A program made the position numbers and the translations under genes. From NCBI GenBank assembly GCA_009995705.1, contig JAADBR010000167.1, positions 1-11,103 of the forward strand: 11,103 bases of DNA. The letters run 5' to 3'. Source of the stretch: Microcystis aeruginosa W13-11 (GTDB lineage: Bacteria; Cyanobacteriota; Cyanobacteriia; Cyanobacteriales; Microcystaceae). Position 1 is the first letter of the stretch. Each line of letters begins with the position of its first letter. The notes under the pieces were generated by a model. That model did no database searches and was not told the DNA's origin. It saw only the letters and a list, made by a program, of their open reading frames with translations. Of the stretch, positions 2,737 to 10,948 are shown one piece after another.

Positions 2737-3750
2737 ATGATAAATAACCAAATTGATTTACGGTGGTGGCTACTGAGTAACTTGGCGAGTATTCAATCTT
2801 TGTCAATTATTTACAGAATATCGGTAATAGTCACTTTTATTATCTTCATTTTTTGCGCTTTTTCTCCTTTCATGTTCTTGATAACTCCCACGGGTAAGAT
2901 ACGGAAATTTTTATTGTCAAATCTAATATTTATTATCTCCTTAGTGACTTTTATTTTAGCAGCACGCTGGCCAGGTTTCTTGCCACCAATGCTAAACCCC
3001 GATGAGGCACTATTTACCGCAGGTGCTCTCAAACTGTTGAAAGATCCAGTTTTCTGGCGTGCGGTAGATACAGGTTCATCTGGACCTCTCAATGTTTATC
3101 CTCTGACTCTACCAGCTTTTTTCGGGTTCAGAATTGAATATGCTAGTAGTCGTGTTATCGGCCTAATCATGATAATTGCTGCTATTGTTTGTCTTTATTA
3201 TGCTTTATCCATTCTCTACGATAAGAGCCTTTCTCGCCTAGCAATAGTTCCCGTTGTTACAACTGTAGCCTTAATGACATTTTTTGACTATGTGCATTAT
3301 ACAAGTGAACATTTTTCGATTGCAATATTAAGTGTGGCCTTGTTAATCGTTTGTAAATATTATGCTGGTAATTCATCTAATCCTAATCACCTGATATTTG
3401 CCTTGGGTTTTATCCTGGGAACTACTCCTTTTGCCAAAATGCAGTCAGTTCCTATAGCTTTCTCAATTGCTTGTATATTTTTTCACATACTCTGGCTAAA
3501 AAGCAGAGCAAGAGGTCAATTTATCAGGAGTGCTGCTGCTTTCTTTCTTGGGGGAATGTTGTTCTCGGCTTTAGTCCTACTATATCTAACAATTTTCTCA
3601 ATATATGATGCTTTCTGGAAATCTTATATACAACAGAATTTATTGATTTATTCTAGTCATGGTTTGATGGCAGCAATTCTCATTTTGATGCTAGAAGCAG
3701 ATTTTAGCACCCCCACCAAAAATGTCATAACCCTCATAATGACTGAATAG
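2737..3750 (+). pseudogene. GT-C/PMT-type membrane glycosyltransferase, N-terminal part, interrupted by a MITE
   Basis: Residues 1-311 (to 3669) are native. They contain several hydrophobic segments (about 30-50, 58-76, 140-160, 167-182, 194-207, 218-230, 238-254, 266-290). The first large loop carries NPDEALFTAGALKL (87-100) and DTGSSGPLNVYPLTLP (111-126). An acidic motif in the first extracytoplasmic loop of a multi-pass protein is typical of GT-C (PMT/ArnT-like) transferases, which move sugars from polyprenyl-phosphate donors. From residue 312 the frame runs into the MITE, which adds about 26 foreign residues and a TAG (3748-3750). The remainder is at 3807-4645. A TATAAT hexamer lies at 2689-2694, but I find no convincing -35. 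The fold class is likely; the substrate and exact family are unknown. The two fragments are unlikely to work as a transferase unless they associate. Confidence 0.7.
3662..3670. repeat. Left target-site duplication of the MITE
   Basis: GTTTGATGG immediately precedes the left terminal inverted repeat and is repeated exactly at 3798-3806 after the right one. A 9-bp duplication marks a transposition event. In the coding frame it encodes part of the His-Gly-Leu-Met-Gly stretch of the glycosyltransferase. Confidence 0.92.
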
Positions 3751-3797
3751 CTGAAATTACACCCGTCCAACACTGATTGGTGAAATGAGAATTGCTG
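3671..3797. mobile_element. 127-bp MITE inserted in the glycosyltransferase gene
   Basis: The element starts CAGCAATTCTCATTT (3671-3685) and ends AAATGAGAATTGCTG (3783-3797), a 15-bp perfect inverted repeat, flanked by the exact duplication GTTTGATGG. It encodes no transposase. Its right half (3734-3780) matches the reverse complement of 10875-10921 at 45 of 47 positions. Its 16-nt right end (3782-3797) matches 10799-10814 exactly in inverted orientation. It therefore looks like an internally deleted relative of the IS at the right end of the window, mobilised in trans. Removing the element plus one duplication (136 bp) brings the upstream and downstream frames together. Confidence 0.93.
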
Positions 3798-4645
3798 GTT
3801 TGATGGGAGACGTAAATCAACTAAGCTTTTTCAGAAAAATCAACATATTTCTTCGGATGTTAATAAGAGTGCAAGATACAAGAATATTATTTTTATTAAC
3901 AGCAATTGTCTTGATATTAGGAGTACCATTTTTAATAATAAAGCGTGTTTCCTTAAGCCAAAATCAAGAAAAGTCCAAGACATTTTGCTTTGTCTATTAC
4001 AGTTTATTTATTTTGGTTGCATCGAGTTACTCAGTTATCAAACCAGGAAACGGGTTTACTCATTATTTGCTGTTTCTAATCATGCCTAGTGGATTTCTCA
4101 TTGGCGTCTTTATGGGTGAACTGGCAAAAGTTTTACAGGTGTCAAAATTAACTCGTTCAAACTTAAGTTTCTCTCTTTTAACAGGTGTCATTTTGATTAC
4201 AGTTGCTAGTAGTTTTTTAGAATTTGCCGCAACGATAGCATCAGATAATTTTTACCTCGATAATCGCAAAAGATTTGCTAAAAATTATCTTAGTCCGATT
4301 GCAGAAACTATTCTCAAGTATGCTTCTCCTGGTGAATCTATGGCTGTCTGGGGATGGGCATCAGAGTTATATGTTGGCACGGGACTGGTAACAGCAACAA
4401 GGGCTATTGTGATGGGGCCATTTAAATACTTTCCCCTACAGCAATATTTTTTCAAACAGTATGCAGACGATCTTATTAATTCTAAAGCTAAGTTATTTGT
4501 TGATGCTGTAGCTCCGAGAATGTTTTTCTTTACCGATAGAGAAACTCAGGGACACGAAGTTTTTCCTGAAATTGCTAGGGTTATCAAGGAAAATTATCGG
4601 CTAGTTGATGAAGTTCAAGGAGTTCGTATTTATCTTAAAAAATGA
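3785..4645 (+). pseudogene. GT-C/PMT-type membrane glycosyltransferase, C-terminal part
   Basis: Native sequence resumes at 3807 (GDVNQLSFFRK). The apparent ATG at 3785 lies inside the MITE's right terminal repeat, with no clear ribosome binding site. Hydrophobic segments are at about 34-52, 67-84, 93-111 and 128-146. A soluble C-terminal domain follows (about 155-286) with SPIAETILKY, AVWGWASELYVGTG, ATRAIVMGPF, and FVDAVAPRMFFF. This matches the extracytoplasmic C-terminal domain often seen in bacterial PMT-like proteins, with its WG..ELY..TG pattern. Joined to the upstream half the protein would be 590 residues, a normal size for the class. The stop is TGA 4643-4645. The sequence is otherwise clean, so the insertion is probably recent. 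Confidence 0.7.
3798..3806. repeat. Right target-site duplication of the MITE
   Basis: This is an exact second copy of GTTTGATGG, directly after the right terminal inverted repeat and immediately before the resumed glycosyltransferase coding sequence. Confidence 0.92.
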
Positions 4646-5007: not shown

Positions 5008-8000
5008 ATGAGTACCGCTACCTTTACAGAAAATTTTAATACTTTTACCGGTTTGGGATTAGCCCCGATTCCGAGTCTAGGCCAGCTAGATTCCGACCTT
5101 TGGATTATTTCCGGCCTTTCCGATAGCAGCATGACCTACGGGGATACCCGTACCTCAGGAGATTTTGCCAGAGGACAGACATCTAACCCTGTCACCACCG
5201 GGGGAGTTTATGCTTTCATCGTCGCTTCGGGAAATAATGCTTTTGGGGTACAACCCACAACAGATGATTTTACCCCCGGCACTATCACCCTACGCTTACA
5301 GAATGTCACTAATAGCTTAGTGGATTCGATTACTCTTTCCTATATCATCCGCTTTCGCAACGACCAATCTAGGGCTAATTCTCTCAACTTTTCCTATTCC
5401 GGGGACGGAAATAGTTTTACTGCTGTTAGCAGTTTGGACTTTACCACCCCGAAGAGTTCCGACAGTCTGGGTTGGCAGTCGGTAACTCGCTCTATTACTC
5501 TTTCTGGACTAAGCATCGCCGCTAATAGTAATTTTTTCCTGCGTTGGACGGGGGATGATGTTGATGGTAGCGGTAGTCGTGATGAGTATGCAATTGATGA
5601 TATTGCCGTGACTGGTTTAGCCGCTCCAGGTACAGTTGTTCCGCCCACTCCTACCCTCGCAAAAATCCATGAAATTCAAGGCACAGGTTTAGCCAGCCCA
5701 ATTTTAAATCAATTGGTGACTGTAGAGGCGATCGTGGTGGGAGATTTCCAGGGTAATACAGGATTAAGTGGTTTTTATCTCCAGGAGGAAGATAGCGATA
5801 GCGATAGTAATCCTCTGACTTCCGAAGGCTTATTTATCTTTGAAGGCAATATCCCGATTGTTAACATTGCAGTTGGCGATAAAGTCAGAATTACAGGAAC
5901 AGTTAGTGAATTTGGTAGCGCGGGGGTATCCCTAACCCAACTGAGCAGCATCACAGAAGCGTTAATTATTTCTAGTAATAATTCGCTGCCCACGGCTGCC
6001 ACTATTAGCAATCTCTCGAATGCGAATGCTCAAACCCAAGCTTTAGAAGCTTTTGAGGGAATGCGGACAACTTTCGCCGAAACTCTTTCTTTAACTGAAT
6101 ATTTCCAACTTGGTCGTTTTGGCAGTGTGGTTTTATCCTCTGGGGGACGCTTACAGCAACCCACTAACCTTACCAATCCGGGGACAGATGCCAATACTTT
6201 ACAAGCGAGTAATAATCTGCGACGGATTACCCTTGATGATGGCAGTAATAGCACTTTTCCGACGACTCTATTCGGACGCGGTGGCAATCCCCTCAGTACC
6301 AGCAATATTTTACGAGCCGGGGACACAATCACGGGATTAACCGGAGTATTAGACCAACGCTTCGGAATCTATCGCGTCCAGAATAACCAAGGCGTCGACT
6401 TCCAAGCAGTCAATAATCGCTCAGAAACGCCCACTAATGTGGGGGGTAGGCTAAAAATTGCCAGTTATAACGTCCTTAATTACTTTACCACCATCGCCGA
6501 TGGTAACAATAATGCCAGGGGTGCCAATAGTACCAACGAATTTCAGCGTCAAGAGAATAAATTAGTCACGGCGCTTATCGGTCTTGATGCCGATGTTTTC
6601 GGGTTGATAGAATTGGAAAATAATGGCGATGGCACGATATCTAACCTTGTTAACGCTTTAAATACCGTTGCCGGTGCAGGAACCTACGCTTTTATCCCCA
6701 CAGGTACAATTGGCACTGATGCGATTAAAGTGGGATTGATTTATCGACCCGCTAAAGTGACCCCTGTAGGCAATTTTAAGATCTTAGACAGCAGCGTTGA
6801 TACTCGTTTCGATGATACTCGCAATCGTCCCGCCCTAGCACAAGCCTTCCAAGAAGTCAATACCAGTGCCAAATTTAATTTAGTCGTCAATCACCTAAAA
6901 TCAAAAAGTCAATCGGGTTTAACTAATACAAGTGATCCTAACTTCGATCGAGGAGATGGTCAAGGCTTCTGGAATGCCAGCCGCACCAATGCCGCTTTAG
7001 CCTTAAAGGATTGGATAGCCACAGACCCCACTAATAGCGGTGATGGGGATTATTTAATTATCGGGGATCTCAATGCCTACGCCCAAGAAGACCCAATTCG
7101 AGCGTTCGAATCCGCCGGATATACAAACTTAGTGAGTCGATTTGGGGGTATTAACGCTTATTCCTACGTTTTCGATGGTCAAGCTGGTTATCTCGACCAT
7201 GCTCTCGCTAATGCTAGTTTAGCCGCCCAGATAACAGGAGTGACGGAATGGCACATTAACGCTGATGAACCCAGTGTTTTTGACTACGATGACAATATCG
7301 TTGACCCCGGCGAAAATCCCTCTAATCCTCCCTTAAACCCCTCTGCACTCTACCAAGTTAACCCCTATCGTACCAGTGATCACGATCCCGTTTTAATTGG
7401 CTTAAACTTAACCACTCCCCAACCCTTTAAACTGCAATTATTCCATTTTTCCGACAACGAAGGCGGAATTTCAGCCCTTGATGATGCCCCGCGCATGAGT
7501 GCGGTGCTAAATGCTTTGCGACAGCAGGACATCGATAATAACGGCGTAGCCGGTTTTGCCAATACCCTCACCCTTGCATCTGGAGATGCTTATATCCCAG
7601 GTCTATTTTTCGGGGCCAGTGAACAGGTATTCGGGGCAGTTGGCCGCGGCGATATCCAGATTCTCAACAATTTGGGAGTACAAGCGAACGCTTTTGGTAA
7701 TCATGAATTTGACCAAGGTACAGCAGTTGTCCGTAATCTAATTCTTCCCAGTGGCAACTATCCCGGTACAAATTTCCCCTATCTCAGTTCTAATCTTAAT
7801 TTTGCCCCCGATACCAACTTAGCCAGTTTAGTAACTGCTGATGGTCTCGAAGCCAGCACCATTCCAAATAAAATCGCCAAAAGTACAGTGATTACCCTGC
7901 CCAATGGCGAGAAAATTGGCATTATCGGCGCAACTACACCGATTTTACGCTCAATTTCCAGCCCAGGTAACGTGGGAGTTTCTCCTGCTAATCCAGATGA

Positions 8001-9696
8001 CCTTGATGCTTTAGCGGCCATTATTCAAGCTTCCGTCGATGCACTTTTGGCCGCTAATCCGGGGATGAATAAGATCGTCGTGTTAGCCCATATGCAACAA
8101 TTATCGATCGAACAAGCCCTAGCAGAACGTTTACGCAATGTCGATATTATCGTCGCTGGCGGTTCCCATACCCGCTTAACCGACGGAAACGACCGTTTAC
8201 GCGCTGGAGACACTTTCCAGGGGGTTTACCCCATTGTCAAAACCAATCCAGACGGCAAACCAGTAGCGGTAGTTAATACCGATGCCAATTATAAGTACGT
8301 CGGGCGCTTAGTTATCGATTTTGATAGCAATGGTCATATCATTCCCGAAAGCTACAATCCCAATATTAGCGGCGCTTACGCCACCGATGCCCAAGGAGTG
8401 ACGGAAGTGGGAGGAACCGGGTTAGAAGACCCCGAAATTCGGGGGATTACCAATTCCCTGAGGGAGGTTATTAACGCTCAAGAAGGCAATTTCTTCGGCT
8501 TTACGCGAGTTTTCCTCAATGGTCAACGGTCAGGGACAGGATTAGATGGAGTTCGCCAACAGGAAACCAACCTCGGCAATATTACCGCCGATGCTAACCT
8601 AACTGAAGCCAAAAAAACCGATGCTAACGTGGTTATTTCCCTGAAAAATGGCGGTGGCATTCGCAATAGCATTGGCAGTATTATCGTTCCCACCGGTGCG
8701 GAAGCAGTACGGGTAGCACCAGAAGAAGTACCAGGGGTGAAACCAGCCGGGGGAATTTCGGAAGTAGCGATTAAAAATGCCCTCAGCTTTAATAATTCCC
8801 TCAGTCTCACCACTGTCACCGCTAGTGAATTAAAGGGGATTTTGGAGTATGGCCTAGCCGCTAGTACAAATGATCCTGCTAATTCCCCGGGCCGTTTCCC
8901 GCAAGTGGGAGGAATGGCCTTCAGCTTCCACCTTGATGACCCCGCCGGCAGTCGGATAAAATCTTTGGTAATTAAGGGTGAAAACGGCACAGTTATCGAT
9001 GTAGTGGTGCAAAATGGTGCAATTATTGGTGATGCTAATCGTAGCTTCCGCATGGTGACGCTTTCTTTTCTTCTTGATGGCGGTGATGGTTATACCATTC
9101 CCCAGCGCAATCGCGTCAACTTGCTAGGCAGTACACCCAACTTCACTGGAAATGCAACTTTTGCCCCCGATGGTACGGAACAGGACGCTTTTGCAGAGTA
9201 TTTACGCTCGAATTTCTTCAATCAACCCTTTTTAGGGGGAGATGTGAGCAGAGAATTTGATACCCGTCTGCAAAACCTCAATTTCCGCAGCGATGAAGTT
9301 TTGCGTTCCACTCGTTCGGGTACGGCGGGCATTGATAATCTAGTGGGTACTACCGGTGATGATGTCCTAGTCGGGTTCCAAGGTCGCGATACCCTAACTG
9401 GTTTAAGTGGTAATGACTTCTTTGTTTATGTCAGCTTGAGCGATCGCAGTGATACCATCTCTGATTTTACCGTGGGCAGCGACAAAATTGTTCTCACGCA
9501 ACTGCTTAACAGTTTGAATTACGCTGGCAGTAATCCCATTGCTGATGGTTATATCACTTTTACTGCTCGTGGTAGCAGTACGGTTCTCAATATCGATGCT
9601 GATGGTTTTGGAACTGCTGCTAATCCTTTATCCCTAGCATTAATTAATAACGTTGCGGTGGCGCAATTGAATAATCTCAATAATTTCCTGTTCTAG
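5008..9696 (+). CDS. Secreted multidomain nuclease / 5'-nucleotidase (ExeM/NucH-like EEP + metallophosphatase + RTX, type I secretion)
   Basis: A 1562-residue extracellular enzyme. Residues about 1-205 form a beta-rich jelly-roll-like region. About 215-320 form an OB-like domain as in ExeM/NucH (HEIQGTG, FYLQEED, VGDKVRITGTV). About 480-800 form an EEP nuclease domain: YNVLN (487-491), catalytic ELEN with E535, NHLKSK with H629, GDLNAY with D687/N689, LDH (729-731), SDHDPV with D791/H792. About 810-1120 form a calcineurin-like metallophosphatase: HFSDNEGG (813-820), SGDAYIPG (858-865), GNHEFD (897-902), H1028, GGSHT (1051-1055). About 1155-1420 form a 5'-nucleotidase C-terminal domain with NGGGIR (1214-1219) and LDGGDGYTI. 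Four RTX-like nonapeptides (1438-1473) and a DTISDF..GSDKIVL tail end the protein. There is no N-terminal signal peptide, consistent with type I export via the C-terminus. The likely job is cutting extracellular DNA and releasing phosphate. ATG 5008 has no good ribosome binding site, but no better in-frame start is seen. Confidence 0.9.
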   Translation: MSTATFTENFNTFTGLGLAPIPSLGQLDSDLWIISGLSDSSMTYGDTRTSGDFARGQTSNPVTTGGVYAFIVASGNNAFGVQPTTDDFTPGTITLRLQNVTNSLVDSITLSYIIRFRNDQSRANSLNFSYSGDGNSFTAVSSLDFTTPKSSDSLGWQSVTRSITLSGLSIAANSNFFLRWTGDDVDGSGSRDEYAIDDIAVTGLAAPGTVVPPTPTLAKIHEIQGTGLASPILNQLVTVEAIVVGDFQGNTGLSGFYLQEEDSDSDSNPLTSEGLFIFEGNIPIVNIAVGDKVRITGTVSEFGSAGVSLTQLSSITEALIISSNNSLPTAATISNLSNANAQTQALEAFEGMRTTFAETLSLTEYFQLGRFGSVVLSSGGRLQQPTNLTNPGTDANTLQASNNLRRITLDDGSNSTFPTTLFGRGGNPLSTSNILRAGDTITGLTGVLDQRFGIYRVQNNQGVDFQAVNNRSETPTNVGGRLKIASYNVLNYFTTIADGNNNARGANSTNEFQRQENKLVTALIGLDADVFGLIELENNGDGTISNLVNALNTVAGAGTYAFIPTGTIGTDAIKVGLIYRPAKVTPVGNFKILDSSVDTRFDDTRNRPALAQAFQEVNTSAKFNLVVNHLKSKSQSGLTNTSDPNFDRGDGQGFWNASRTNAALALKDWIATDPTNSGDGDYLIIGDLNAYAQEDPIRAFESAGYTNLVSRFGGINAYSYVFDGQAGYLDHALANASLAAQITGVTEWHINADEPSVFDYDDNIVDPGENPSNPPLNPSALYQVNPYRTSDHDPVLIGLNLTTPQPFKLQLFHFSDNEGGISALDDAPRMSAVLNALRQQDIDNNGVAGFANTLTLASGDAYIPGLFFGASEQVFGAVGRGDIQILNNLGVQANAFGNHEFDQGTAVVRNLILPSGNYPGTNFPYLSSNLNFAPDTNLASLVTADGLEASTIPNKIAKSTVITLPNGEKIGIIGATTPILRSISSPGNVGVSPANPDDLDALAAIIQASVDALLAANPGMNKIVVLAHMQQLSIEQALAERLRNVDIIVAGGSHTRLTDGNDRLRAGDTFQGVYPIVKTNPDGKPVAVVNTDANYKYVGRLVIDFDSNGHIIPESYNPNISGAYATDAQGVTEVGGTGLEDPEIRGITNSLREVINAQEGNFFGFTRVFLNGQRSGTGLDGVRQQETNLGNITADANLTEAKKTDANVVISLKNGGGIRNSIGSIIVPTGAEAVRVAPEEVPGVKPAGGISEVAIKNALSFNNSLSLTTVTASELKGILEYGLAASTNDPANSPGRFPQVGGMAFSFHLDDPAGSRIKSLVIKGENGTVIDVVVQNGAIIGDANRSFRMVTLSFLLDGGDGYTIPQRNRVNLLGSTPNFTGNATFAPDGTEQDAFAEYLRSNFFNQPFLGGDVSREFDTRLQNLNFRSDEVLRSTRSGTAGIDNLVGTTGDDVLVGFQGRDTLTGLSGNDFFVYVSLSDRSDTISDFTVGSDKIVLTQLLNSLNYAGSNPIADGYITFTARGSSTVLNIDADGFGTAANPLSLALINNVAVAQLNNLNNFLF

Positions 9697-10798: not shown

Positions 10799-10948
10799 CA
10801 GCAATTCTCATTTCAAAAAGTAACAATTTGTACAGACAGAAAAAGAGATTTAACAGGTGGCAAAATCGCGATCGCCAATCACTGTTGGACGGGTGTAATT
10901 TCAGCTATTCAGCCATTATGACTGGAGTTTAGACTAACTCAACCTGCA

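Follow-up and report, generated by a model that had tools for sequence, protein, structure and literature searches.

How did a gene for a probable membrane glycosyltransferase in the bloom cyanobacterium Microcystis aeruginosa W13-11 come to lie in two pieces, and what is left of its function? The locus is part of an 11,103-nt stretch of contig JAADBR010000167.1 (hereafter the window, to which all positions refer), and the two pieces are separated by a 127-bp segment with the structure of a miniature inverted-repeat transposable element (MITE). A non-autonomous element, probably moved in trans by the transposase of a 1.84-kb insertion sequence, almost certainly broke codon 312 of this gene, which is predicted to be of the GT-C type. 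The features concerned are as follows.

2737..3670, + strand: 5' half of the probable GT-C-fold glycosyltransferase gene, 311 codons and the first base of codon 312
3662..3670, no strand: left copy of the target-site duplication, GTTTGATGG, present as a single copy in the closest homologue (L001)
3671..3797, no strand: 127-bp MITE with an internal deletion, from a family in which 186 bp is the greatest length found
3671..3685, + strand: left terminal inverted repeat, CAGCAATTCTCATTT; the 1.84-kb insertion sequences have identical ends
3783..3797, - strand: right terminal inverted repeat, including an in-frame ATG at 3785 which opens the open reading frame (ORF) 3785-4645
3798..3806, no strand: right copy of the target-site duplication, GTTTGATGG
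3807..4645, + strand: 3' half of the probable glycosyltransferase gene, stop included

The original prediction, made from the sequence of the window, described an element of 127 bp, bounded by perfect 15-bp terminal inverted repeats and an exact 9-bp target duplication, and the positions of the repeats confirm this: the two 15-bp arms are 100% complementary and GTTTGATGG is repeated exactly on both sides of the element. No other place in the window combines arms of 10 bp or more with an adjacent direct repeat of 6 bp or more. Such structures averaged 0.005 per sequence in 200 random sequences from a first-order Markov model, and the full 15/9-bp structure was found in 0 of the 200. The element has stops in all three forward frames and encodes no transposase. 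Folded as a single DNA strand, it outdid every one of 200 shuffled versions (z = -4.35), a result which its inverted ends would lead one to expect.

Precise removal of the insert restores a 590-residue gene, as had been predicted ((934 + 839)/3 = 591 codons including the stop), although the upstream part ends at 3670, the first base of the split Gly codon, and not at 3669. The junction residues of the restored gene, SSHGLMGDVN, are identical in the homologue from LSC13-02 (L001), the closest relative, which reads TTGATTTATTCTAGCCATGGTTTGATGGGAGACGTAAATCAA, that is, a single GTTTGATGG at the exact junction and no element. The 5' half has 96% DNA identity to this uninterrupted homologue and the 3' half 92% protein identity over 278 aa; the DNA after the 3' half runs on into the same downstream region, where LSC13-02 is collinear with the window for 5.4 kb at 92%. 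In total three named Microcystis genomes have the gene whole (590, 591 and 590 aa), with the target sequence diverged in the other two (L002 and L003). Neither of the two results named beforehand as refuting the insertion, relatives which all carry the 127 bp or an uninterrupted homologue which does not match at the junction, was seen. A contig scan with the downstream half returned three loci, all from Microcystis, and on these matches the window is from Microcystis or a very close relative.

The element is not confined to this gene. Matches were present in 2 of 12 Microcystis genomes, 3 in G001 and 2 in G007 (G001-G003 being the genomes of L001-L003), and the copies with both ends readable were 144, 145, 186 and 186 bp long. 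These four copies and the window copy each have an exact and different 9-bp duplication (CTTTTTTGC, GTGGCGCAG, ATGGGGAAG, CCTACGAAC and GTTTGATGG), and the 127-, 144- and 145-bp forms each lack different internal stretches of the 186-bp form. Duplications were counted at 26 distinct places, with repeat fetches counted once and with L004 and L065 (which run off contig ends) and a truncated second window copy excluded. This second copy is the following feature.

10799..10921, no strand: second member of this MITE family, truncated and in the opposite orientation, right end missing

It is 96-97% identical to the 186-bp copies over 123-124 bp, and from 10921 on a different repeat, which matches two other Microcystis genomes at 99%, takes the place of the right end. 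Thirteen elements of 121-122 bp form one family (all checked by shared words) which is related to the 186-bp family only in its ends. At L047, L048, L052 and L054 the 121-122-bp element has the same flanks in several genomes and no 9-bp duplication, and looks there like part of a larger shared repeat. Across 148 sampled genomes of the order (with up to 5 candidates scored in each) matches were found in 5, three of which lie outside the set of 12 and have short matches only, of 22-36 bases. There was no element match in annotated plasmids or phages, and no match to the paired-end pattern in viral contigs.

A probable parent can be named from the ends. The 15-bp end, with at most one mismatch, was found in 12 of 12 Microcystis genomes, against 0 or 1 match per genome for a reversed control pattern among the places listed. 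Five end pairs lie 1837-1867 bp apart; in the four which were read, a single long open frame of 436-454 residues lies between the ends, and L040, the fifth, has this frame too. The 15-bp ends of this 1.84-kb insertion sequence (L039, L043, L044 and L045) are identical to those of the window MITE and several of its copies have 9-bp duplications, but it encodes a transposase frame of 436-454 residues where the MITE encodes none. L039 and L043 have 55 subterminal bp in common with the 186-bp MITE. Against the 1837-bp element, the left 55 bp of this MITE show 91% identity to the left end, and its right 18 bp agree fully with the right end. The frame scored below cut-off for Pfam DDE_Tnp_1 (22.1 bits for L039 and 16.9 for L045; cut-off 23) and for NCBIfam IS4_2 (21.7 bits; cut-off 152). 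Among the 15 plasmid matches listed, one is annotated as an ISNCY family transposase (63% identity) and two as transposase only. Full-length open transposase matches were present in 6 of the 12 Microcystis genomes. One copy, L041, is interrupted by about 1 kb with another transposase-like frame, its outer 9-bp duplication being intact.

Together, the exact empty site, the further copies with 9-bp duplications and the likely parent bear out the claim of a MITE insertion. The non-autonomous element would be related to the 1.84-kb insertion sequence by internal deletion, and the transposase of the latter, to judge from the shared ends and the equal duplication length, would have moved it in trans into codon 312 of the 590-residue gene. 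The insertion doubled 9 bp of target, as is visible from the empty and filled sites. The insert adds 136 bases, not a multiple of three, and the upstream frame today runs through 26 element codons before a stop (ORF 2737-3750, 337 aa), so the product would be a 337-residue N-terminal half. This would keep an invariant Asp-Glu pair but lack the C-terminal domain and what remains of the membrane domain, and the inserted gene is most likely a null allele.

The assignment as a glycosyltransferase is supported by fold. The predicted model of the L001 protein has a GT-C fold. GT-C enzymes carry acidic catalytic residues in the first extramembrane loop; D89 and E90, invariant in 53 sequences, may be such residues. 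No Pfam family was found for the window halves and none above cut-off for L001-L003; only the 53%-identical P0021 passes a Pfam cut-off, narrowly (PMT_2, 27.0 bits against 26.1). Sequence identity of the gene product to ArnT and related GT-C glycosyltransferases (PDB 5f15 and 5ezm) is 9%. The model thus points to the intact gene product being a probable membrane glycosyltransferase of GT-C type.

Using the L001 protein as query, near-full-length uninterrupted copies (83-100% identity) were found in 4 of the 12 Microcystis genomes: G001, G002 (two), G003 and G012 (two). A further genome (G005) has a gene remnant with a stop, two (G006 and G007) have matches at about 43% identity only, and in 5 of the 12 searched there was no match. 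Since several genomes lack the gene or hold only a remnant of it, it is variably present and its loss appears to be tolerated. In G012 several glycosyltransferase paralogues (L073, L079 and L084-L086), some of them fragments, lie close together within about 13 kb.

The insertion had also been suggested to be polymorphic, and other genomes do lack the insert, but a second inserted allele was not found in two protein searches. The 590-aa homologue as query gave 91 proteins (the best 7998 candidates by shared words were scored, in a length range which includes 337 aa) and the 286-aa ORF gave 20, together 103 proteins. The element-coded peptides tested are absent from all 103, and no protein among them is 330-345 or 280-292 aa long. 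Those matches of 262-263 aa for which the sequence was read begin at a later Met, as expected of gene calls on fragments or of other truncations. One metagenomic version of the gene (P0029, 377 aa) changes frame slightly upstream of the insertion point and is possibly another natural null allele or an assembly error.

The event had further been called recent. Beyond the insertion itself, no stop or frameshift has been acquired in either half, which is consistent with this, although the event itself is undated: only an upper limit, the divergence from L001 (dS about 0.08-0.09), can be set, and the insertion could fall anywhere on that branch. Between the window and L001, dN/dS is 0.33 in the first half and 0.50 in the second, slightly higher than the values which intact genes gave among themselves (0.23-0.27 and 0.41-0.49). 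As a weak test for relaxed selection, polarised codon changes were counted: 8 synonymous and 15 non-synonymous on the window branch and 6 and 6 on that of L001, numbers too small for a verdict.

Several observations weigh against a trans-mobilised MITE derived from the 1.84-kb insertion sequence. Exact 9-bp duplications flank only 4 of the 7 insertion-sequence copies (1837-2873 bp), 4 of the 13 elements of 121-122 bp and not the single 87-bp element; later rearrangement is a possible reason for the missing duplications. In G001 and G007, the two genomes with MITE matches, the transposase has no match and a 43% partial match only, respectively; both have contig numbers in the hundreds, so transposase copies may have been lost in assembly. 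The 127-bp form keeps just 17 bp at the end where the 186-bp form shares 55 bp, and its link to the parent therefore runs via the 186-bp form. Finally, the 127-bp form with its internal deletion was found at no other place; the deletion may have followed insertion, and the deleted form may itself be immobile.

This last point leads to a variant which is compatible with the MITE insertion and to which we give somewhat less than an even chance, namely that what inserted was longer, either a 186-bp copy or a complete insertion sequence, and then lost its interior in place. It would account for a 127-bp form known from the window only and for 127-, 144- and 145-bp forms which each have their own internal deletion. 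Against it, the 144- and 145-bp forms have perfect duplications and may move themselves; this is not decisive, as they too may have shrunk after insertion.

It is very unlikely that the split gene works as two chains, a 337-residue N half and a 286-residue C half started from the ATG in the right repeat. ORF 3785-4645 does begin in the repeat in frame with the downstream half, the insertion point falls in a low-confidence loop of the model (residues 307-318), no terminator-like site was found in 3500-3900, and a Microcystis MITE in sbp is transcribed through according to the portion of PMC11448079 consulted. However, 3500-3900 holds a single promoter-like match, which lies on the minus strand and does not exceed chance expectation, none of the 103 proteins has element-coded residues or a length near 337 or 286, and loss of the gene appears to be tolerated in the genomes without it or with a remnant. 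Read outward, the terminal repeat (3783-3797; also the ends in L006 and L007) gives ATG followed by Arg-Ile-Ala, so that insertion in the right frame gives the downstream part of a gene a new start codon.

The original prediction added that the insertion could revert by precise excision. Precise excision between short direct repeats, aided by inverted repeats, is established for Tn5 and Tn10. PMC4390865, in the portion consulted, cites this excision for Tn5/Tn10 and gives precise loss as a minority outcome for an archaeal insertion sequence. We consider it very unlikely that the locus acts as a population switch, in which low-level precise excision (by way of the 9-bp repeats and hairpin-forming ends) would restore a surface-sugar enzyme and the inserted form might make a two-chain version from the start codon of the element. 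That the 127 bp are ancestral and were lost by the relatives is refuted by the empty site with one target copy in one of three named relatives without them, and the same element lies elsewhere within different 9-bp duplications; nothing was found in favour of this reading.

MITE-disrupted Microcystis genes have already been published, and the MITE insertion in W13-11 is another, ordinary gene loss by a mobile element. In the parts of PMC11448079 consulted, a 187-nt MITE is described in sbp and livG of PCC 7806 delta-mcyB, with 8-nt duplications and assigned to ISL3. Like the window MITE it is short, has inverted ends and a target duplication but no transposase, lies inside genes, and has a parent insertion sequence deduced from shared ends. 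However, its ends start with GGCTCTTCG and are imperfect over 9 nt, whereas those of the window MITE are the perfect 15-bp CAGCAATTCTCATTT, and the latter differs also in its 9-bp duplication and in the transposase proposed for it. The start of the window repeat, CAGCAATTC, is absent from the main text of that paper, which also reports, in the parts consulted, that the ISNCY-like ISMae2 interrupted a glycosyltransferase gene in one PCC 7806 derivative. A 95-bp MITE in the Microcystis pirE precursor gene is said to silence it (PMC3428304, portion consulted); it too lies in a coding gene but is 95 rather than 127 bp long, and is likened by description only. No description of this family with its 9-bp duplications was found in the literature searched, the NIES-843 genome paper (Kaneko 2007), the likeliest place for one, being outside the search. 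The window adds a MITE family with 9-bp duplications to those found described for Microcystis and cleanly records one transposition event, with a filled site, an empty site, family members of graded length and a probable parent element. For the host it is one more strain-specific loss of a probable membrane glycosyltransferase gene, and general understanding is unchanged.

Elsewhere in the window, 753-2201 is possibly an adenine-specific DNA methylase gene, with weak matches of which none reaches a curated cut-off; a TAG at 1101-1103 divides it into ORFs 753-1103 and 1188-2201. At 5008-9696 a 1562-residue protein is encoded which combines an ExeM/NucH-type nuclease region, a 5'-nucleotidase region and a C-terminal RTX calcium-binding repeat.
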